Below, one piece after another: positions 31,382 through 53,189 of a DNA stretch of 57,238 nucleotides. This DNA comes from an uncultured Flavobacteriales bacterium (lineage in GTDB: Bacteria > Bacteroidota > Bacteroidia > Flavobacteriales_E > Vicingaceae): contig CAJQON010000026.1 of assembly GCA_905479995.1 (NCBI GenBank), positions 1-57,238 of the forward strand, in the 5' to 3' direction. A model generated the notes under the pieces. The model was given only the letters and a program-made list of their open reading frames with translations, did no database searches and had not been told where the DNA came from. The translations under genes were made by a program, and so were the position numbers. How positions within the stretch are numbered: the stretch's first letter is position 1; the number at the start of each line of letters is the position of its first letter.

Positions 31382-33349
31382 ATGAAGCAGCTCAGTTTTA
31401 TCTTACTATTTCTAATTTTGTCTGTTGGCACTAATGCGCAGGTAGCTGACACTACTTTAGAAAAGGTTAAAAGCGCTTCAAGCATTCACTCCAAAACAAG
31501 AATCCTAATCAATGACGGATGGAAGGTTCAAGCTACCGACCCTAAAAGCGCCCTTGAATATGTATTTCTTGCTCAAAAAGATTCCCAAGAGATTAAGTCA
31601 CCTTTGTTATTAGATAGCCTATATCGCTTAAGAGCCTTTTGCTACGGTGATTTAAATAACCGATCCGCTACACTTAAAAGTCATTTGGCAAGATTAAGAG
31701 TTTTAAACAAAATGAATAAACCTACCAAAGCCCTATCCTCAGCCTACTACGAATCAGCAGCGTTAATTAAAAATCAAGGAAATGATGAAATGGCACTAGC
31801 TTATTACCTAAAATGTTATGATGTTGCCAAACTAGTTGGATATGACACTCAATTGGGTCAAGTAATGATGACCCTATCAGATTATTATAAGGAAAAAAAT
31901 CAACTGGATTCCGCCTTGTTAATGTTGAATGACTCTAGAAAAATATTTGAACCAATAGAAAGGTTACAATTTATATTAGGGTCCATTGATATACAAATTG
32001 CTACCCTAAATGATATTATGGGAAACCAAGAAGCAGTTATTGGATTGATAGAAAGAGGCCTAAAATATGCCGATACGCTTAATTATCCTGATTATAACGC
32101 CATTACTTATTCAAATGCCGGAGGTTTATTATTAAAATATGGCAAAGTAAAGATGTCCATTAAAAATTTGCATATTGCGGAAAGTATTTGCCTTAAACAC
32201 AATAAATATTTTTACCTACCCAAGGTCTACCGTTCGTTATCTTCAGCCTATACGAATACTAATAAAACACTTGCACTTGAATACCTGAACAAATATGTTG
32301 AAATAAATGATTCTGTACTCAACGTTAAAAATAATGAAGCGATTGCAGAGCTTCAATTTATTTATGAAGATGAAAAAAAGGGGTTAGAAATAGCAAACCT
32401 TCAAAAAGACAATTTACTTGTAGAGGCAGAAAGCTCAAGAAAAAGTGAGCAACTAAGATTAATTGTTGTTGCGTTTATAGTGGTGGTGGTGCTAATGGTC
32501 TTTTTAGGTTTTCTGGTCAAAAAAGTACGGAACCAAAACCAGTTAGTTAGAGAGCAAAAGAAGGTTGTGGAAGTTCGCAATCAAGAAGTTGAAGATAGTA
32601 TCAATTATGCCCAACGGATTCAAGAGGCAATGATACCTCAACAAAAGAGAATGGAAGAACTTTTCCCAATGTCCTTTGTTTATTATAGCCCAAAAGAGAA
32701 TTTAAGTGGCGATTTTTATTGGTGCTACAAGGTTAACACAAGTGAAAACGAAAACCTAAACTTATTTGCTGTAGGTGACTGCACTGGCCATGGAATCCCT
32801 GGAGCATTATTAAGTATATTAGGAATAAATTATTTGAACTTAGGCGCAGTTAGTAGTTCTGTCAATAGCACAGGTGAAGCCTTGGATTATTTAGATTTTG
32901 GGTTTCAACACACTTTTGGACACAGTAGAGAATTAATCCGAGATGGTATGGATATTGTATTAGGGGCAATTGATTTGACAAAAAATATTTTGCACTATAG
33001 TTGTGCAAAAAACCCAATTTATATTGTAAGAAAAAAGGAGTTAATTATCCTTAAAGGAGATAAAAAAGCGGTTGGCAATGACGACAAAGATCATAATTTT
33101 AGGTTCTCTGTCAATTCCTTTGATCTTCTAGAAGGAGATAAAATCTATGCAGTGTCTGATGGTTTTCAAGATCAATTTGGGGGGCCTTCTGGAAAAAAAT
33201 ACAAACTTGGCAATTTTAAAAAATTCCTGATTGATCTTTCCTCTCATAATATGGATAAGCAAAGAGTAAGGGTCGAAAATGAATTGAATAATTGGAAAGG
33301 GAACCTCGAGCAAATTGATGATGTCACTATTATGGGGATAGGAATATAG
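31382..33349 (+). CDS. TPR sensor with SpoIIE-type PP2C phosphatase domain
   Basis: A 655-residue membrane protein. It has a signal peptide (KQLSFILLFLILSVGTNAQ), TPR-like helical repeats about 25-320, one transmembrane helix (about 358-380, LIVVAFIVVVVLMVFLGFLV) and a coiled coil with SINYAQRIQEAMIP (about 405-420). The C-terminal SpoIIE/PP2C domain shows LSGDFYW, VGDCTGHGIPGALLS and YAVSDGFQDQFG, which hold the metal-binding aspartates. It is predicted to sense outside the cytoplasm through TPRs and dephosphorylate an anti-anti-sigma-like partner inside. No such partner is adjacent. A stand-alone receiver gene on the opposite strand follows. Confidence 0.9.
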   Translation: MKQLSFILLFLILSVGTNAQVADTTLEKVKSASSIHSKTRILINDGWKVQATDPKSALEYVFLAQKDSQEIKSPLLLDSLYRLRAFCYGDLNNRSATLKSHLARLRVLNKMNKPTKALSSAYYESAALIKNQGNDEMALAYYLKCYDVAKLVGYDTQLGQVMMTLSDYYKEKNQLDSALLMLNDSRKIFEPIERLQFILGSIDIQIATLNDIMGNQEAVIGLIERGLKYADTLNYPDYNAITYSNAGGLLLKYGKVKMSIKNLHIAESICLKHNKYFYLPKVYRSLSSAYTNTNKTLALEYLNKYVEINDSVLNVKNNEAIAELQFIYEDEKKGLEIANLQKDNLLVEAESSRKSEQLRLIVVAFIVVVVLMVFLGFLVKKVRNQNQLVREQKKVVEVRNQEVEDSINYAQRIQEAMIPQQKRMEELFPMSFVYYSPKENLSGDFYWCYKVNTSENENLNLFAVGDCTGHGIPGALLSILGINYLNLGAVSSSVNSTGEALDYLDFGFQHTFGHSRELIRDGMDIVLGAIDLTKNILHYSCAKNPIYIVRKKELIILKGDKKAVGNDDKDHNFRFSVNSFDLLEGDKIYAVSDGFQDQFGGPSGKKYKLGNFKKFLIDLSSHNMDKQRVRVENELNNWKGNLEQIDDVTIMGIGI

Positions 33350-33535: not shown

Positions 33536-33931
33536 TTAACATATCAACTGCATATCTGGAAGGCAAATAAAAGTGGAGGCTATCAAATCCTTCATAAAAT
33601 CGTCATCTTCTTTACAGACATAATCATTTGCCCCCAAAGCCGTAATCTTGAAAATAATTTCTGAATTAGATTCTCCTGAAAAAATAATCACAGGTATAGA
33701 ACTCTCTTTTCTAAATTCTACTAAAAATTCTATACCATTTTGATACTTAAGATTCCTTTCATTAAAACGGTAATCTAATACTATCAAATCAGGTTTTTTA
33801 TTTTTAATGTATTCTATAGTAGGGTCAGCGTTGGGCAATACATCTACTTTGCAATTAAAATGATTGGTTAACTGAATGGAAATTATTTCCGAAAGGATTT
33901 TACTATCCTCTATTACTAAAATTCTTTTCAT
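33536..33931 (-). CDS. single-domain response regulator (receiver)
   Basis: A 131-residue receiver. The acidic pair is E8/D9 (VIEDSK), the phospho-acceptor D53 (VLDYRF), the switch serine lies in IIFSGES and the lysine is K107 in DYVCKEDD. There is no output domain. It is leftward, facing the SpoIIE gene and divergent from another receiver at 34165, so it may relay phosphate between the kinases of this region. Single-gene unit. Confidence 0.88.
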   Translation of the reverse strand: MKRILVIEDSKILSEIISIQLTNHFNCKVDVLPNADPTIEYIKNKKPDLIVLDYRFNERNLKYQNGIEFLVEFRKESSIPVIIFSGESNSEIIFKITALGANDYVCKEDDDFMKDLIASTFICLPDMQLIC

Positions 33932-34552: not shown

Positions 34553-35704
34553 ATGAAGTCTATATTATACATTGGTGAAAATAAAAATAATTTAATTCTT
34601 AGCGGTTTCAATAGTTCAATGCTAAATAGTATTTCTTATAAACGCACCCTAAACAATGCTTATTCTTTTTTATTAAATAGTGACCGACTTCCTAAGATTA
34701 TTTTTTGCGAAAAAAACAAAAAAACAAACCCTTTTAAACTAATCAAGTTGTTCAAAGCTAACCCAAGATTTTATAAGATAGTGTTTGTTTTAATAGGCAA
34801 CGGAATGTCTAAAAAAGAAATTCAATACGCACGAGATTGTGGGGTAGATGAAGTGATTCAGTCACCGAATAAGATTCATTTTTATTTAGATAGATTAAAA
34901 TTTCTGATGCAATATAAAACTGAAAAAAAATCTATCAAAAAACAAAAAATGAAAGGTTCCCCCAAAACACCCTTTACTAAAAGACTATTTGATATTGTTT
35001 TCGCAAGCTTAATTCTTGTAGTTATATCCCCTTTAATAATACTTACAATTATTGCTATAAAAATTGAATCTAAAGGGCCTTTGTTTTATTCTGCTAAGCG
35101 TGTTGGGAGAGAATATCAAATTTTCAATTTTTATAAATTTAGATCTATGCAGATAAATGCAGATGAAAAACTAAAAGATATAGAAGGCCTAAATCAATAC
35201 CGAAAAGGTCATTTGAATGATAAGCTGTCTTTTTGCCCTAATTGTAATCCAGCTATGGCTTGCTCACCAATCTTATTTATTGATGGTAAAGAGATTTGCG
35301 AACAACACCACCATCGAATTTCAAAATTAAAGGGAGCTAGCACATTTATTAAAATAAAAGATGACCCCAGAGTTACTAGGGTAGGAAGATTTATTCGAAA
35401 CACTAGCATTGATGAACTTCCTCAGCTCATTAATGTAATCAAAGGGGACATGTCTATTGTTGGAAATAGACCTTTACCCTTATATGAAGCTGAATTATTG
35501 ACTTCTGATAATTGGGCAGAAAGATTTGCAGCTCCAGCAGGAATAACTGGCTTATGGCAAGTTGAAAAAAGAGGTGGTGGAGAAATGAGTGAGGAAGAAA
35601 GAAAAAATCTGGATAACAAATATGCGAAGAATAGTTCTTTTTTGTATGACCTTAAATTGATTATAAGAACCATCCCAGCATTAATGCAAAGTGAAAATGT
35701 ATAA
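34553..35704 (+). CDS. initiating EPS sugar transferase with N-terminal pseudo-receiver and Cys-rich insertion
   Basis: A 383-residue protein. Residues 1-120 resemble a receiver fold but lack the phospho-acceptor (KIIFCEKNKK where DLIISDLTMP would be). One transmembrane helix follows (about 146-170), then the bacterial sugar-transferase domain: KRLFDIVFA, FYKFRSMQINAD, IDELPQLINVIKGDMSIVGNRP and GITGLWQV. An insertion at about 208-260 carries C228, C231, C237, C249 and a histidine triplet, resembling a metal site. It would transfer the first sugar phosphate to undecaprenyl phosphate at the inner membrane. Second gene of the EPS cluster, directly after a receiver gene. Confidence 0.9.
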   Translation: MKSILYIGENKNNLILSGFNSSMLNSISYKRTLNNAYSFLLNSDRLPKIIFCEKNKKTNPFKLIKLFKANPRFYKIVFVLIGNGMSKKEIQYARDCGVDEVIQSPNKIHFYLDRLKFLMQYKTEKKSIKKQKMKGSPKTPFTKRLFDIVFASLILVVISPLIILTIIAIKIESKGPLFYSAKRVGREYQIFNFYKFRSMQINADEKLKDIEGLNQYRKGHLNDKLSFCPNCNPAMACSPILFIDGKEICEQHHHRISKLKGASTFIKIKDDPRVTRVGRFIRNTSIDELPQLINVIKGDMSIVGNRPLPLYEAELLTSDNWAERFAAPAGITGLWQVEKRGGGEMSEEERKNLDNKYAKNSSFLYDLKLIIRTIPALMQSENV

Positions 35705-36433: not shown

Positions 36434-38671
36434 ATGAACTTATTATCATTTATAAGATTACTTATTAATCATTACAAGCTGATGTTAACAATGGCAATAA
36501 TCGTTGCATCAATGGTTTTGTTTCTAATGAAAGATGAACCCAGAAATTATTTAACCACCACAACCATTTATACTGGGTTTGCTTCAGGATACTCTCTAAA
36601 AAACAGTGAAAGAAGAGATTTTTATGCCATCAAAACTAAATTCGACAACTTGTTTGAAAGTATTAAATCCAGAACAACAAGAGAAGAAATCATACTTAAA
36701 ACATGGGCTTTTTATTTAGTTCAAGATTCCATTAGTAAAAAAGACATGTCGTTTGAAAATCAATTAATATTTAGAGAATTATTATCTAATAAATTGCGAA
36801 ACAAACTAGTTGTCTCTAGCAACGAAGAAGAAGTCTATAACCGTTTATACAATTATTATAGTAAAAACTTTAACAATGAAATCTATCATATTCTCAATTC
36901 ATCAGAATCACCTTTTCATGATTATTTTGGATTAGAACAATTATCATCAATAGATGCGACACAGGAAGGGAGTAGTGATCGTGTACTAATAAGCTACGAG
37001 ACCAACGACCCCGGAGTTTGTTTTCATACCACTCGAATTGCATTGGCAGTGATTATGGATAATGTAAAAACCATCAAATCTGCAGAATCTGATGATGTTG
37101 TCAATTATTTTATTCAAGAATCCAAAATAGCGCATTCAAAACTTGATGCAGCAGAGCTGGAATTAAGTGAATTAATGACCAAAAACAACGTCATTAACTA
37201 TTATGAACAAACCAAATGGTTAGCTTCTCGAAAAGAAGACTTTCAAGTTGCCTACCAAAGTGAAAAACTCAAACTTGCTGCAGCAAAAGCTGCTGAAAAA
37301 GAGGCCGAGCACAAAATGAATATGGGTAAAGGACTCTTGCAAAAGAAGGAGGAAATTTTCGATTTGAGACAACAAATTGCCTCACTCTCTTCAAAAATTG
37401 CCTTTATTGAAATTGATAAATCTATTACCCCAAAATCCAGTCAACCAATAAAATCTCTTCCCAACAATATTAATTTAAACAAGCATCGATCAGATCTACT
37501 TGGCTTAAAAGATAAACTTCAATCTCAAATTGAGCAATTGTATCTTTTAGGGCATACTTCGAATGGAATAAAGATTGAAAAAATTGCTACTACATGGTTA
37601 GATGCAGTAATCGCAGTGGAAGAGTATACTGCTCGAATTTATCAATACATCCAGTTCAGTAAAGAATTTGAAATTACCTATACACAATTTGCAAGTTTAG
37701 GATCTAAAATAAAACAAATGGAACGAAAAATATCTGTTTTAGAAAAGGATTATTTAGACTTATTAGCTAGTGTGAACGATTCAAAACTAATGAAACAAAA
37801 TATTGCATTATCAAGTAATTTAAAGATTATTGACCCCCCATTTTACCCTGTGAATGCAGAAAAATCAAAAAAAACAATGCTAGTGATCTTGGGAGGAATA
37901 GCTGGCTTTATATTAACACTAAGCTTACTCATTCTCTTAGAGTTTTTAGACACCACCATTAAAACCCCCGATAGAGCTAATTTACTAACTGGCTGCTACG
38001 TAGCTGGAGGTTTCCCTCTATTAAACAAGAAAATAGTTCCGCTCTATCGAGAGCTATTTAGCCTTTTAACTAATCAAATCGCTACTTATATCAATTATAA
38101 TTATTATCAAACCAAAGGAAAAGATGATCCTTTTGTAGTGATATTCATGAGTACGAGAAGTGGTGAAGGGAAAACACAATTAAGTCAATTAATTGCTAGA
38201 GACTTAAGAATTGCAGGAGAGCCAACCCTAGTTCTTTCTCCGGGCTCTATTGAACGGTCATACTTCCTCTCACATCAGGATAAAGACAACATCGAATATA
38301 ATATTCCCAAAAACATCTGTGATATACCAATTAATTCAAAGGAAATAATTGGCAATTATCAACTGGAAAATTATCGGTATGTCTTTTTTGAAATTCCAGC
38401 TATTATTGGGAGTGATCTGCCCATTCAAATTATTAAAGAAGCTGATTTGTCGCTTTTAATATTAAAAGCAAACAGAAACTGGAACAAAGCAGATAGTATG
38501 GCTTTAGAAAGTTATACTAAAATTACTGCACATCAAATCAGCGGTGTATTAAATGGTGCAAATGTAGATTCACTAGAATCAATCATTGGAGAAATCCCAA
38601 AAAAAAGAAGTTCATTTAGAAAAAAGATGAAAAAATGGGCTAAACTTCAATTTAAGCAGAATCAATTTTAA
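36434..38671 (+). CDS. Wzz/BY-kinase-like EPS chain-length and export protein with a probably inactive kinase domain
   Basis: A 745-residue inner-membrane protein. An N-terminal Wzz-type segment has a transmembrane helix (about 14-30). A large periplasmic coiled-coil region follows (about 200-470), then the second transmembrane helix (about 478-502) and a cytoplasmic ATPase-like domain with Walker A STRSGEGKT (about residues 572-580). The Walker A' aspartates are absent (PTLVLSPGS where IDADLR-like sequence is expected), and the C-terminus is lysine-rich without a tyrosine cluster. It therefore looks like a BY-kinase homologue without autokinase activity, regulating polymer length and coupling to the outer-membrane channel. 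Confidence 0.85.
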   Translation: MNLLSFIRLLINHYKLMLTMAIIVASMVLFLMKDEPRNYLTTTTIYTGFASGYSLKNSERRDFYAIKTKFDNLFESIKSRTTREEIILKTWAFYLVQDSISKKDMSFENQLIFRELLSNKLRNKLVVSSNEEEVYNRLYNYYSKNFNNEIYHILNSSESPFHDYFGLEQLSSIDATQEGSSDRVLISYETNDPGVCFHTTRIALAVIMDNVKTIKSAESDDVVNYFIQESKIAHSKLDAAELELSELMTKNNVINYYEQTKWLASRKEDFQVAYQSEKLKLAAAKAAEKEAEHKMNMGKGLLQKKEEIFDLRQQIASLSSKIAFIEIDKSITPKSSQPIKSLPNNINLNKHRSDLLGLKDKLQSQIEQLYLLGHTSNGIKIEKIATTWLDAVIAVEEYTARIYQYIQFSKEFEITYTQFASLGSKIKQMERKISVLEKDYLDLLASVNDSKLMKQNIALSSNLKIIDPPFYPVNAEKSKKTMLVILGGIAGFILTLSLLILLEFLDTTIKTPDRANLLTGCYVAGGFPLLNKKIVPLYRELFSLLTNQIATYINYNYYQTKGKDDPFVVIFMSTRSGEGKTQLSQLIARDLRIAGEPTLVLSPGSIERSYFLSHQDKDNIEYNIPKNICDIPINSKEIIGNYQLENYRYVFFEIPAIIGSDLPIQIIKEADLSLLILKANRNWNKADSMALESYTKITAHQISGVLNGANVDSLESIIGEIPKKRSSFRKKMKKWAKLQFKQNQF

Positions 38672-38680
38672 ACAATAAGA

Positions 38681-40150
38681 ATGACTAAATTTAATCAAAC
38701 AGGTGCATCCGGCATATACTCTAAAACTAGGTTATTTGGGTTAGCTTTATCTATGATTATTTTTGGTTATTTAATGTCTAAAGACTTAATAATCTCTGCA
38801 TCTTTATTAGGATTAATACCAATTGGCTATATAATCTACCATGTATACAAAAAACCAAGTATTGGACTAAATGCTTTGTTATTAATTTCTTTTTTTGCTG
38901 TTGGATTAACACGATTAATCCCTTTACCTCTTGGCTTATCCATTGATTTCATTCTTCTACTCATTTGGGTTATACTCTTCTTTAAAGGTTTTAATGGTGC
39001 AAACTGGTCTCTCAAGAACAACTCTCTAACTTATTGTTTAGCCATTTGGGTATTGTATTGTTTTTTAGAAGTCCTTAATCCTGAAGCGCAAAGCATACTG
39101 GCTTGGGTTTATGCTGTTCGTGGTTTAGCACTATATGGTATTTTCTTAGTCCCTTTAATTTTTTTAGTGTACAATAAACAACAAAATTGCAAAACATTTA
39201 TTTCGATCTGGTTTTCTGTTTCAATAATACTCGGATTATATGGAGCAAAACAATATTGGTTTGGACTCTTCTCATTTGAACAAGATTGGTTGGATAATGG
39301 CGGTGCCGTGACCCATGTACTTTGGGGTGAATTCACAAGAATGTTTTCTTTTTCTTCTGATGCCAATCAATTTGGATCATCTCAAGCTCATGCAGCAATG
39401 GTTGCTATCATATTTTCTATAGGGGAAAAAGGAGTTAAACGAAAATTATTTTACTATCTAACTGCTTTGGTATGCTCCTATGGTATGGTCATTTCTGGAA
39501 CTAGAGGTGCTATCATAATTCCAGTTGTTGGATTATCAATCTATCTTATCCTCTCTAAAAATTATCAAATCTTCACCCTTGGATCCATTCTAGGCGGAGG
39601 GCTATTATATCTTATAGCTTTCACTTTCGTTTTTAACGATGTAGCTCCTATCCGCAGGATGCGTTCTGCATTTAGTGCCACAAAAGATGCTTCATTCCAA
39701 GTTAGAATTGATAACAGAATAAAACTGGAAAACTATATGACTGACAAACCATTTGGTGGTGGAATTGGGTCTGCAGGAGTTTGGGGGAAGAGGTTCTCTC
39801 CTGGGAATTTTCTTGCTGATTTTGAAACAGACGGACAATACGTTCGGATTTATGCAGAAACGGGTTGGGTCGGGCTATACTTATACTATCTTCTCCATGC
39901 TATTATTATTGGAAGAATGGTATTAATTTGCTGGAGATTAAAGCAAGTTAAATTGAGGACAATAATGATTGGTTTCACTTGCGGAACAATTGCATTAATG
40001 GTGGTAAACTATGGAGCAGCCGTAACAATAGCCTTGCCCTCTAGTGTTCTTGTATTGTGGTCTATGGCCTTTGTATACCTTTCTCCTAAGTGGGATAAAA
40101 ACGAAGAGTACCCCGTTTTTGAATTATCCCAAAACACTAATTCAGATTGA
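38681..40150 (+). CDS. O-antigen ligase/Wzy-like polymerase
   Basis: A 489-residue membrane protein with about 12 hydrophobic segments and the Wzy_C-type periplasmic region: SGTRGAIIIPVVGLSIYLIL, later NRIKLENYMTDKPFGGGIGS and DGQYVRIYAETGWVGLYLYY. These motifs (including the arginine-containing GTRGA and the ETGWVGL segment) are typical of the O-antigen ligase/polymerase family. In this cluster it most likely polymerises the exported repeat units. Starts 10 bp after the Wzz-like gene. Confidence 0.85.
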   Translation: MTKFNQTGASGIYSKTRLFGLALSMIIFGYLMSKDLIISASLLGLIPIGYIIYHVYKKPSIGLNALLLISFFAVGLTRLIPLPLGLSIDFILLLIWVILFFKGFNGANWSLKNNSLTYCLAIWVLYCFLEVLNPEAQSILAWVYAVRGLALYGIFLVPLIFLVYNKQQNCKTFISIWFSVSIILGLYGAKQYWFGLFSFEQDWLDNGGAVTHVLWGEFTRMFSFSSDANQFGSSQAHAAMVAIIFSIGEKGVKRKLFYYLTALVCSYGMVISGTRGAIIIPVVGLSIYLILSKNYQIFTLGSILGGGLLYLIAFTFVFNDVAPIRRMRSAFSATKDASFQVRIDNRIKLENYMTDKPFGGGIGSAGVWGKRFSPGNFLADFETDGQYVRIYAETGWVGLYLYYLLHAIIIGRMVLICWRLKQVKLRTIMIGFTCGTIALMVVNYGAAVTIALPSSVLVLWSMAFVYLSPKWDKNEEYPVFELSQNTNSD

Positions 40151-40283: not shown

Positions 40284-41603
40284 ATGTGGAACAGAATCAT
40301 ATCAAATAAACATGCCCAATCCCTCTTTGAAAAAGTAGGAACATCAGGATTAGCCATTATTTCATTTATTATTCTAGCCAGAGTATTCTCTCAAAATGAT
40401 TTTGGACAATGGATATTATATCTTACTCTACTCACATTTGTTGATATGATCAAATGTGGAGTTGTTAAAACAGCCTTAATCAAATATGCTAGTGGATCAA
40501 AACAAGATTATCAACATGAACTAATAGGGAGCAGTTGGATTCTCAATCTTATTTTAGTGAGTATTATTACAATAGGCTGTTATTCCATCTATTATCTAGA
40601 TATTTTCCAATTGGAAGGAATCATTTTTTTCTTATTGTTCTATCCAATTTATGCAATTGTCTCAATGCCTTTTTTCTATTTTTTATGGAATAATCAGGCA
40701 TTCCTCGAATTCAAAAAAATAACGCTGCTCCGTATTTTCAATGCATTGGTTTTTTTGATGGTTTGTTTGTTATCCCTCTTTATTTCCATAAATCTTCAAC
40801 AGCTCATCATTATGCATTTGCTTATTTTCTCTATCTCGAGCATATTAGCGCTGTATTTAGGAAATACTGGATGTCTTTACCTCATAAAAGCCACCAAATC
40901 GACTTGTTATAAAATAATCCGTTTTGCCCAATTTCATATGCTTGCATTTTTAGGTTCAAACCTGCTAAAAAGTGCAGATGTATTTCTAATAGGAGCATTT
41001 TTAGGGCCTGTAGCTATTGCAATATATAGTATTCCTTTAAGATTAATAGAAGTTATAGAGGCGCCATTAAAAAGTGCCGTTGCAGTTGCTTTCCCTGTAA
41101 TATCATCACACGACAATAACAATAACAAAAGTGCTCTCAAAGATTCTATAGAAAAATACATAGGCATACTAACATTACTTTACATCCCCTTTATGACAAT
41201 TCTCTACTTATTATCTGAGCCACTTGTTTTATTAATTGGAGGTGATAAATATTTGGATGCCGTTTATATTTTTCAGCTGTTTTTAATCTATGGATTATTC
41301 TTACCCTTTGATCGGTTAACTGGAATTACACTTGATGCTATTGGACTACCTAAACTTAACTTTTATAAGGTGGTTATAATGGCATCAATAAATATCATTG
41401 GGGACATACTGGTCATTTATTTTTTCAAAAGCCTCGAATTAGTAGCACTGGTAACCGTAATGAATGTAATATCTGGAATGATTATAGGCTATCTGTTCGT
41501 AAAAAGGGAAATTAATCTAAGCATCAAATCTATCATTAAAAGTGGCTTTTCAACCATCCTAAATTATTATAAAAAATACACATTCAATAATGAATTAACT
41601 TAA
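40284..41603 (+). CDS. Wzx-like polysaccharide flippase
   Basis: A 439-residue protein with roughly 12 transmembrane segments and MATE/Wzx-fold features: N-terminal VGTSGLAIISFIILARVFSQ followed by NDFGQWILY, and FLGSNLLKSADVFLIGAFLGPVAIAIYSIPLRL. These match the polysaccharide biosynthesis/flippase family, which moves undecaprenyl-linked repeat units across the inner membrane. I chose the ATG at 40284 because the open frame upstream (40147-40338) is in another register and has no protein-like pattern. Confidence 0.87.
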   Translation: MWNRIISNKHAQSLFEKVGTSGLAIISFIILARVFSQNDFGQWILYLTLLTFVDMIKCGVVKTALIKYASGSKQDYQHELIGSSWILNLILVSIITIGCYSIYYLDIFQLEGIIFFLLFYPIYAIVSMPFFYFLWNNQAFLEFKKITLLRIFNALVFLMVCLLSLFISINLQQLIIMHLLIFSISSILALYLGNTGCLYLIKATKSTCYKIIRFAQFHMLAFLGSNLLKSADVFLIGAFLGPVAIAIYSIPLRLIEVIEAPLKSAVAVAFPVISSHDNNNNKSALKDSIEKYIGILTLLYIPFMTILYLLSEPLVLLIGGDKYLDAVYIFQLFLIYGLFLPFDRLTGITLDAIGLPKLNFYKVVIMASINIIGDILVIYFFKSLELVALVTVMNVISGMIIGYLFVKREINLSIKSIIKSGFSTILNYYKKYTFNNELT

Positions 41604-48369: not shown

Positions 48370-48756
48370 TTAAGCAATTTTTTCGATCCCCGATCCAGAT
48401 TTGTTCAATCTAATTGATTTATTGATTTGTTCAATTACCTCTAGGTCCAACTTCGAAACGACAAGTCTCGGATCATATATTGTTGGACCTATAAAGTTCT
48501 TGGGAAGTGGCGTTAAACAGAATATTTCTGCAGAGCAATTAATTTCTAAAACTTTTTTTAGGCAATCTAAATGCCCCTTCTTCGAAAAATAAGCATCAAC
48601 AAGAATAATGTCAGGCCATATAGTGCTAATATTGTTTAACGCATTGTTTTTGCATTTCCAGTGCCACAAATCAACATCAGATAGTTGTAGAGTGTTATGC
48701 CAATATGATGTTGGCAATTCATTAAGGCTAATAATAAAAACTTTTATTGGTTTCAT
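48370..48756 (-). CDS. degenerate single-domain receiver
   Basis: A 128-residue receiver-like protein. D54 (IILVDAYFSKKG), a threonine in FCLTPLPKN and K in VVSKLDLE are kept, but the acidic magnesium-binding pair near residue 10 is replaced (FIISLNELP). It may be phosphorylation-independent or use another metal arrangement. It is 11 bp from the anchored receiver and preceded by a sigma-54-like promoter. Probably an adaptor within the NO-sensing phosphorelay. Confidence 0.65.
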   Translation of the reverse strand: MKPIKVFIISLNELPTSYWHNTLQLSDVDLWHWKCKNNALNNISTIWPDIILVDAYFSKKGHLDCLKKVLEINCSAEIFCLTPLPKNFIGPTIYDPRLVVSKLDLEVIEQINKSIRLNKSGSGIEKIA

Positions 48757-51845: not shown

Positions 51846-53189
51846 TTAATTTTCTTGTTCTTTTAACATTCTATAAATAGTAGATTTCCCTATTTGAAGA
51901 GCACTTGCTGCATCAATAACATTGTTATTGTGCTTGTCCAGAAAATGTTTGATAATTTTCAAGTTATACTCCTTTAATGATTTATTCTCCATTAACAATT
52001 CAGATAAAGGGTCTGTTGATGGAAAACTAATATGCTCTGGCTCAATAGTTTCATTTTCTGCCAATACACTTGCCAATTCTACTACGGCTTTTAGTTCCCT
52101 AATATTTCCTGGATAATTATAGCCCATTAACTTGTTGTTTGCTTTTTCCGAGAGCTGCTTTTTAGGCATCTCATTTTCCTGGACAAACTCATCAATAAAA
52201 AATTTAGCCAAAAGTAGAATATCCTCTCTACGAACCCTCAATGGTGGCAATTCAATTGGAAGACCCAATAATCTGTAATACAAATCTTGTCTAAAATTCC
52301 CTTTTTTAACTTCTTCCAATAAATTTCGGTGTGTTGCTACAATCACTCTGCATTTCAATTTAATCACTTCACTTCCCCCAATACGTACTACTTCTTTCTC
52401 TTGTAAAACTCTCAGCAATTTCGCCTGCATATTTACATTCATCTCGCCAACTTCATCCAAAAAGATAGTTCCTTTTCCTGCTTCTTCAAACTTTCCTTTT
52501 CGCCTAGTTTGTGCTCCGGTAAAGGCTCCTCGTTCATGACCAAACAACTCACTTTCTATTAATTCAGCTGGGATTGCGGCAACATTGAAGGCAACAAATG
52601 GCTCTTTTTTATAATCCGAATTATAGTGAATTGCTTTGGCAATTACCTCTTTACCAGTTCCTGTTTCGCCATTAATGGAAACAGTTATACGGCTCGAAAT
52701 GGCTTTTTCAATCAACCCAAAAACTTCTTTTATTGAAGGACTGTTCCCTTTGATAGTTTTAGAAAAATCGTACTTCTTTTGCACTTCTTTTTTTAAATCA
52801 CGTATTTCTTCTTTTAAATCGCAGTGCTCTCGAATATGAAGTATTATTTTCCAAAGATGATCTTTCGTATCATCATTCTTAACCAAGTAATCATAAGCGC
52901 CAACCTTTAATAAATCAACTGCAGTAGAAATATCTTCTTGACCTGATATGATAACCACTTCAGTATCTGGTGATTCTTTTTTAATGTAAGACAATAATTC
53001 CTTTCCATTGGCATCTGGGAGTGAATAATCCAGTGTAATAACATCGGGCTTCTCATGCAATGCAGCTTTTAACTTTTTTCCTGTCTCAAATGTTTTAATC
53101 TCATAGTCAGGATTAAGTTCTAGATGATACCTAAGTATTTCACTGTACCAAACATCATCTTCCGCAATAAATATTTTAAGACTTCTCAT
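51846..53189 (-). CDS. NtrC-family sigma-54-dependent response regulator
   Basis: A 447-residue regulator in three parts: receiver (D10/D11, phospho-acceptor D54, K104), AAA+ domain (Walker A GETGTGKE at 174-181, GAFTGA loop at 221-226 for sigma-54 contact, Walker B FLDEVG at 243-248, RREDI sensor region) and a Fis-type helix-turn-helix at about 420-447 (NVIDAASALQIGKSTIYRML). Phosphorylated dimers would bind enhancer-like sites and activate sigma-54 promoters. It is the first gene of a leftward operon with H-NOX and a hybrid kinase. Candidate sigma-54 promoters in the EPS cluster are likely targets. Confidence 0.93.
   Translation of the reverse strand: MRSLKIFIAEDDVWYSEILRYHLELNPDYEIKTFETGKKLKAALHEKPDVITLDYSLPDANGKELLSYIKKESPDTEVVIISGQEDISTAVDLLKVGAYDYLVKNDDTKDHLWKIILHIREHCDLKEEIRDLKKEVQKKYDFSKTIKGNSPSIKEVFGLIEKAISSRITVSINGETGTGKEVIAKAIHYNSDYKKEPFVAFNVAAIPAELIESELFGHERGAFTGAQTRRKGKFEEAGKGTIFLDEVGEMNVNMQAKLLRVLQEKEVVRIGGSEVIKLKCRVIVATHRNLLEEVKKGNFRQDLYYRLLGLPIELPPLRVRREDILLLAKFFIDEFVQENEMPKKQLSEKANNKLMGYNYPGNIRELKAVVELASVLAENETIEPEHISFPSTDPLSELLMENKSLKEYNLKIIKHFLDKHNNNVIDAASALQIGKSTIYRMLKEQEN

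Follow-up and report, generated by a model that had tools for sequence, protein, structure and literature searches.

A pseudo-receiver-fused initiating sugar transferase and its companion response regulator in an exopolysaccharide locus of the Bacteroidota

According to the available text of PMC12802240, the Myxococcus xanthus response regulator EpsW interacts with EpsZ and stimulates it, EpsZ being a large monotopic phosphoglycosyl transferase (monoPGT) with a transmembrane bundle and a cytoplasmic DUF. EpsW acting on EpsZ is the nearest precedent for the switch proposed below: in both cases a phosphorylatable single-domain response regulator accompanies a monoPGT that initiates exopolysaccharide (EPS) synthesis, and for EpsW and EpsZ that text reports post-translational control as shown. 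Unlike EpsZ, the transferase described here belongs to the small monoPGTs, and it has a pseudo-receiver fused to it, a four-cysteine loop and, in the model, one PglC-type helix ahead of the catalytic part. The NCBIfam equivalogs for EpsW and EpsZ were not reached (67.7 versus 200 bits and 160.9 versus 800 bits, respectively). Small monoPGTs carrying receiver domains, the architecture of our transferase, exist (O'Toole, Imperiali and Allen 2021, as cited in PMC12802240), and the discussion of the citing paper, in its available part, holds that dimer formation may not apply to them. Among the matches listed in open-licence PMC, PMC12802240 was the only one on the control of an initiating transferase by a receiver, and O'Toole et al. 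may detail receiver-fused small monoPGTs; none of the matches listed named the present transferase family, its cysteine loop or a link from H-NOX to an initiating transferase.

Polysaccharide production under an H-NOX protein has been described in Vibrio. In V. fischeri, HnoX restrains the SYP polysaccharide biofilm driven by HahK, through a relay with two response regulators, SypG acting on transcription and SypE post-transcriptionally through SypA (PMC12369376, available parts). In the V. parahaemolyticus H-NOX/HqsK/LuxU system, NO-bound H-NOX inhibits its kinase (PMC6759604, available parts). These systems resemble a module at the far end of our locus in combining H-NOX, a kinase and an HPt relay, the HPt of our module being weak; neither paper, in its available parts, describes an initiating transferase as a direct target.

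The window, that is, the whole stretch of DNA that was analysed, comprises 57,238 nucleotides of an uncultured Flavobacteriales bacterium (GCA_905479995.1, contig CAJQON010000026.1). Its relevant features are collected in Table 1. Relatives of the transferase were gathered by a scan of 84,980 species genomes and by searches of 46, 395, 294 and 395 genomes, the window genome being included in three of these four smaller sets. After merging of identical proteins, 124 HMM matches gave 117 distinct proteins above 300 bits, hereafter the relatives. Matches L059, L060, L062 and L063 (Roseburia and other Lachnospiraceae; 31-32% identity, transferase part only) and the partial match L064 were left out. 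The named full-length members belong to the Bacteroidota. With a limit of E<=1e-80, family members turned up in 31/395 genomes drawn from the phylum and 47/395 drawn from the window's class, both counts including the window genome; near full-length matches occurred in 5 of the 46 genomes from the window's own taxonomic family (again including the window's), and a class search centred on genome G138 yielded 2/294 genomes, both already in the set. The N-terminal domain was present in 105 of the 117 relatives (fused) and missing from 12 (unfused).

Table 1. Features of the window with positions, strand and supporting evidence
Feature	Position	Strand	Evidence or remark
Companion single-domain response regulator, 128 aa	34165..34551	+	PF00072 E 8.8e-26
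Pseudo-receiver-fused initiating sugar transferase, predicted small monotopic phosphoglycosyl transferase	34553..35704	+	383 aa, ATG start
Predicted pseudo-receiver domain, residues 1-124	34553..34924	+	AF2 model, VIA-align Z about 15, column counts
Bac_transf catalytic region, residues 143-378	34979..35686	+	PF02397; PglC match; invariant columns
Extra loop, residues 214-265, with C228/C231/C237/C249	35192..35347	+	Probable structural metal site
Short outer-membrane efflux-type protein, 240 aa	35707..36429	+	PF02321 E 7.6e-17
Wzc-like chain-length-type protein	36434..38671	+	GNVR E 1.3e-5, TIGR03007 E 1.6e-10, both below cut-off
Wzy-type polymerase/ligase	38681..40150	+	PF04932 E 1.3e-11
Wzx-type flippase	40284..41603	+	PF13440 E 2.9e-19
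Hybrid histidine kinase PAS-PAS-HisKA-HATPase-REC-HPt-like, 810 aa	48876..51308	-	Candidate phosphodonor module
H-NOX (haem-NO-binding) protein, 179 aa	51301..51840	-	PF07700 E 6.4e-46; candidate input sensor
NtrC-type sigma-54 response regulator, same module	51846..53189	-	PF00158 E 2.7e-68, PF00072 E 1.4e-20

Bac_transf was the sole Pfam match in the window transferase (E 1.1e-58, 198.1 bits versus a gathering score of 27). An AF2 model was computed from an alignment of 55 rows (pLDDT 83.7, pTM 0.58), in which residues 1-124 form a (beta-alpha)5 domain, followed by long helices (105-134 and 141-173) and the catalytic part. Using VIA-align, the PglC fold was recovered over residues 139-380 (Z 16.5, 178 aligned residues), the catalytic fold being shared with Campylobacter concisus PglC (8e37, 8g1n). 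The PglC chains, of 185-193 residues, have no room for a receiver, unlike the window transferase. Foldseek agreed with VIA-align in finding both PglC and receiver folds in the model. D287-E288, which we take to be the catalytic dyad, was invariant in the 55 rows, and helix 141-173 is presumably the membrane helix, by comparison with PglC. As modelled, the enzyme is a small monoPGT of the PglC fold. Residues 304-307 read GNRP in 114/118 family rows, the pattern having failed to read the other 4, versus GPRP at the equivalent site in the 18 control transferase ORFs that the pattern could read; this difference may bear on the choice of nucleotide sugar.

An earlier note, made from the letters alone, had likened the N-terminal ~120 residues to a receiver without the phospho-acceptor aspartate and had named structure prediction as a test. 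The predicted fold bore this out: residues ~1-124 superposed on CheY, PleD and other receivers with Z 14.5-15.6 over 117-134 residues, and the acceptor-equivalent residue is Glu53. PF00072 gave no Pfam match in the window transferase itself and matched 42/55 family transferases at E<=0.01. Among 58 aligned members, the acceptor position held Glu in 45, Asp in 8 and Gln in 5, while the first position of the acidic pair (Gly8 in the window) was Gly in 50. Of the five canonical receiver positions, 42 members kept one, 8 kept two and 8 kept none, and no member of the 58 kept more than two. A pseudo-receiver is defined as a receiver without key catalytic residues (PMC12632262, available part), and the window domain, with a receiver fold in the model and the phosphorylation residues gone, falls within that definition.

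The gene directly upstream, separated from the transferase gene by 1 base, encodes an intact receiver, as the earlier note had said: it carries E10, D11, D54, S84 and K106, and D11, D54, S84 and K106 were invariant in 49/49 aligned companions, window included (the odd rows L026, L052 and L057 were left out of this alignment). Pairing was counted as a same-strand receiver within <=300 bp upstream, in relatives with >=450 bp of upstream DNA. By this count, the companion lay directly upstream in 99/100 fused relatives, an interrupted copy in L033 being counted among the 99, versus 4/12 unfused relatives (Fisher 9e-9, a value that overstates the association because there are few independent events: the fusion state changes 3 times on the tree, giving 1-3 independent pairs for fused versus paired). 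The control set consisted of 28 further sugar transferases from the window genome and from its family, most with only about 440-660 bp of upstream DNA. An adjacent upstream receiver was found in 0/24 of those with >=450 bp. Four controls fell short of this length and were not counted: two had 441 and 447 bp, L080, a fragment of 132 aa, had 135 bp, and L091 had 0 bp. In the initial set of 57 relatives, a receiver was found upstream in 52/52 with upstream ORFs, the remaining 5 having no upstream ORF in the available sequence. A mechanical gene call placed the receiver next to the transferase in 49 of these 52; in L026 and L052 the companion was masked by an antisense ORF, and L033 has the interrupted copy. 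In six of the relatives, the two genes overlap by 4 bp. The cultured Splendidivirga corallicola (L011) is among the relatives that carry the pair. The pairing of fused transferase and receiver is, at the level of gene order, a strong pattern on few independent events.

Two loci depart from this arrangement. In L033 (3262-5930), other ORFs interrupt the companion gene, among them a 490-aa one labelled by eye as, presumably, an IS66-type transposase, while the transferase ORF is uninterrupted; as read from the sequence, this is a natural disruption of the receiver beside a whole transferase ORF. Genome G388 (L096, L160, L164) provides the single fused relative without a companion; there, the gene immediately before the transferase encodes a histidine kinase instead, and by eye the receiver within the transferase has an Asp at the acceptor position.

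We consider it probable that a phosphorelay to the companion receiver, docking of this receiver on the pseudo-receiver and a consequent change in transferase activity make up a switch at the first step of EPS synthesis. The transferase would start the EPS repeat unit by moving a sugar-1-phosphate onto the membrane lipid carrier. Its pseudo-receiver, having lost its own phosphorylation chemistry, would serve as a docking adaptor, with the companion as its dedicated partner. A histidine kinase acting through an HPt protein would set phosphorylation of the companion at Asp54, and the phosphorylated form would bind the pseudo-receiver and switch the transferase, most likely on. We infer the binding, the phosphodonor and the direction of regulation; the sequences themselves give the predicted folds, the phosphorylation residues lost or kept, the nearly strict pairing of genes and the all-or-none cysteines. 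Protein-level control of the transferase by a receiver, as the earlier note had suggested, is a prediction that gains comparative support from the pairing counts and has a published precedent in EpsW/EpsZ.

A geometric parallel for docking is offered by PleD (2wb4, 2v0n), in which, as we understand it, an adaptor receiver beside the output domain pairs with a phosphorylatable receiver. The window pseudo-receiver matches a single PleD receiver in fold; both PleD receivers lie in one chain, those of the window in two proteins. When companion and transferase were modelled as one chain, with the stop read as Gly (AF2; pLDDT 83.5, pTM 0.53), rigid superposition of the two receivers on the PleD pair gave no match (rmsd 15.4 over 255 aligned positions), an outcome that speaks neither for docking nor against it. 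The absence of a PleD-like pair agrees with another explanation, that the pseudo-receiver is a constitutive homodimerisation or membrane-orientation module and that the neighbouring receiver controls something else, e.g., Wzc or transcription. Receivers and pseudo-receivers often homodimerise, and the four unfused relatives with an adjacent receiver, which count against the docking switch, indicate that a transferase lacking the docking domain can still be paired with a receiver; plain co-transcription with some other target would also be compatible with the adjacency. This explanation is nevertheless unlikely in our judgement, given that pairing is far commoner with the fusion and that the companion directly precedes the transferase, sometimes with overlapping genes. 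The prevalence of Glu at the acceptor position could also be read as a permanent 'on' phosphomimic, leaving the transferase constitutive and the companion to sequester or inhibit it. Since Asp or Gln occupies this position in 13/58 members and few other canonical positions are kept, a phosphomimic switch inside the pseudo-receiver is unlikely; the companion might still be inhibitory, and we regard the explanation as a whole as very improbable.

The remaining alternative concerns the catalytic domain, where a four-cysteine loop might gate the transferase by sensing redox state or metal, with the receiver as a second input. The earlier note had described a CxxC-x5-C-x11-C motif inserted between FRSM and DELPQ, and such a motif is present in the window protein (C228-x2-C231-x5-C237-x11-C249, between FRSM at 196-199 and DELPQ at 287-291). 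The FRSM-to-DELPQ loop measures 89-116 residues in 118/118 family rows and 36-49 residues in 25/28 control transferases, the other 3 not being measurable by pattern. Conservation of the cysteines among close homologues had been named beforehand as a test; all four occurred in 48/58 aligned members and none in 10/58. The conserved cysteines form two pairs, as in a site of zinc-ribbon type. Over the 117 relatives, the motif was found in 87, no loop cysteine in 29 and a single cysteine in 1, the one exception to an all-or-none distribution. Cysteine-free members retain a loop of similar length, and the tree implies at least 11 switches of the four-cysteine state. The histidine cluster of the same note, at positions 252-254 of the window protein, lacks conservation: counting the window, 5, 3 and 2 of the 58 aligned members have His there, respectively. 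A sensor gating the enzyme would be in keeping with the recurrence of CxxC...C...C in the loop before DELPQ. The motif is found in fused (83/105) and unfused (4/12) relatives alike and is therefore not tied to the receiver. The independence of the cluster from the fusion and the lack of conserved histidines favour a structural metal site over a redox sensor coupled to the receiver, and all-or-none loss with loop length kept also fits a structural site better. We hold the sensor explanation to be quite unlikely. Of the suggested control by metal or redox state, a metal site survives as likely, and redox sensing coupled to the receiver is the less likely part. The loop is most likely a structural metal site, presumably for zinc, separate from the proposed docking switch; searches for a known zinc fold gave no convincing match (best Pfam E 0.048, best PDB E 0.11).

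The receiver and transferase genes are the first two of the window's EPS operon. In the relatives, gene order downstream was judged by similarity to the window's genes. The short efflux-type protein was the next gene after the transferase in 48/57 relatives, with 228-287 aa, about half the length of a TolC-type protein, and the Wzc-like protein was second downstream, also in 48/57. A Wzx-like gene came third in 32/48 relatives and a Wzy-like gene fourth in 31/46. By gene content, this is a Wzx/Wzy-type EPS locus headed by a receiver-transferase pair. Just upstream of the companion, a divergent receiver is encoded (33536-33931), and a TPR-SpoIIE phosphatase precedes it (31382-33349; its SiaA-like C-terminal part is below the NCBIfam cut-off). 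In L007, the same place is taken by a partner-switching-like set of STAS, a 167-aa protein and REC-SpoIIE.

Candidate phosphodonors were sought upstream of the transferase and elsewhere in the genome. With small home-made profiles, HPt or histidine kinase genes were detected within <=2.5 kb upstream in 20/117 relatives, a lower bound, many loci having only about 1.5 kb of upstream sequence; eight of these proteins were confirmed by Pfam. A genome search for HPt led to the hybrid kinase, H-NOX and NtrC-type regulator at the other end of the window, behind the EPS genes. The kinase and REC parts of the hybrid kinase are clear, and its HPt scored 20 bits versus a gathering score of 24.6. It shares 44% identity over 777 aa with the kinase that precedes the receiver-transferase pair of L047. 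His103 of the H-NOX protein, presumably the haem ligand, was invariant in 8/8 aligned H-NOX proteins. Homologues of the NtrC-type regulator (55-62% identity) occur in other family loci, e.g., L026, L034, L043 and L047. The window module lies 16 kb from the transferase, on the opposite strand and with receivers of its own. A 128-aa protein without Pfam match, by eye a degenerate receiver, is encoded between a receiver and the hybrid kinase (48370-48756). The window genome contains a second H-NOX (L169; G000:C59:1-12000), accompanied by a hybrid kinase, receivers and a stand-alone HPt.

In other genomes, the two sets of genes are closer. L047 (a Chitinophaga MAG) and L161 (G171) carry, contiguously and on one strand, genes for the NtrC-type regulator, H-NOX, hybrid kinase with HPt, receiver and transferase; L047 has one extra receiver in the series and an HPt just under the cut-off. 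L163 and L164 share the order H-NOX, kinase, FIST, kinase, which in L163 continues with HPt, receivers and the receiver-transferase pair. In L165, an H-NOX-kinase pair is divergent from HPt, receiver and transferase genes. Proteins with a FIST domain, a type described as NO sensors, are found near H-NOX and kinases at L163:5671-6861, L164:3302-4435 and L166:6714-7847.

The association was quantified in 65 transferase-positive genomes, 18 of which gave an H-NOX match and 47 of which did not. H-NOX and transferase are <=25 kb apart in 7 of the 18, against an expectation of 0.27 pairs under uniform placement (Poisson 1.5e-8); 6 genomes remain with the window genome excluded (Poisson 4e-7), and 4/18 have a distance of <=10 kb (Poisson 5e-6). 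In the other 11, some of them fragmented assemblies, H-NOX was not seen near the transferase. In the class draw, H-NOX was present in 15/47 transferase-positive versus 57/348 negative genomes (Fisher 0.015, uncorrected for kinship). H-NOX is found in only part of the family and is often distant; therefore, the input signal probably differs between lineages, nitric oxide being a candidate in some. For these, the gene neighbourhoods suggest nitric-oxide control of EPS initiation.

The fullest form of this proposal, an NO-sensing relay acting directly on the first EPS enzyme by way of H-NOX, hybrid kinase, HPt, receiver and docking on the pseudo-receiver, is put forward tentatively, as an idea that we think has clearly less than an even chance of being right. 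In such a relay, H-NOX, with a FIST-domain protein beside it in some relatives, would control the hybrid kinase, the HPt of which would phosphorylate the single-domain receiver that docks on the pseudo-receiver; in parallel, transcription would fall to the NtrC-type regulator. If the Vibrio systems are a guide, NO would reduce the activity of the kinase and stop EPS initiation quickly, with no new transcription needed.

It is an open question how bacteria commit a scarce lipid carrier to one polysaccharide at the post-translational level. For large monoPGTs, an answer has been proposed from Myxococcus, and the receiver-pseudo-receiver family would extend it to a small monoPGT and to another phylum. 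The conserved, nearly always paired architecture is real, as judged from comparison of the family loci, and the compactness of a live receiver paired with a pseudo-receiver makes the idea testable in vitro. Docking, if true, would give a function to a pseudo-receiver. For part of the family, the neighbourhoods suggest a link to H-NOX that is unexpected and testable; if real, it would tie nitric oxide to EPS initiation, bypassing transcription and cyclic-di-GMP.
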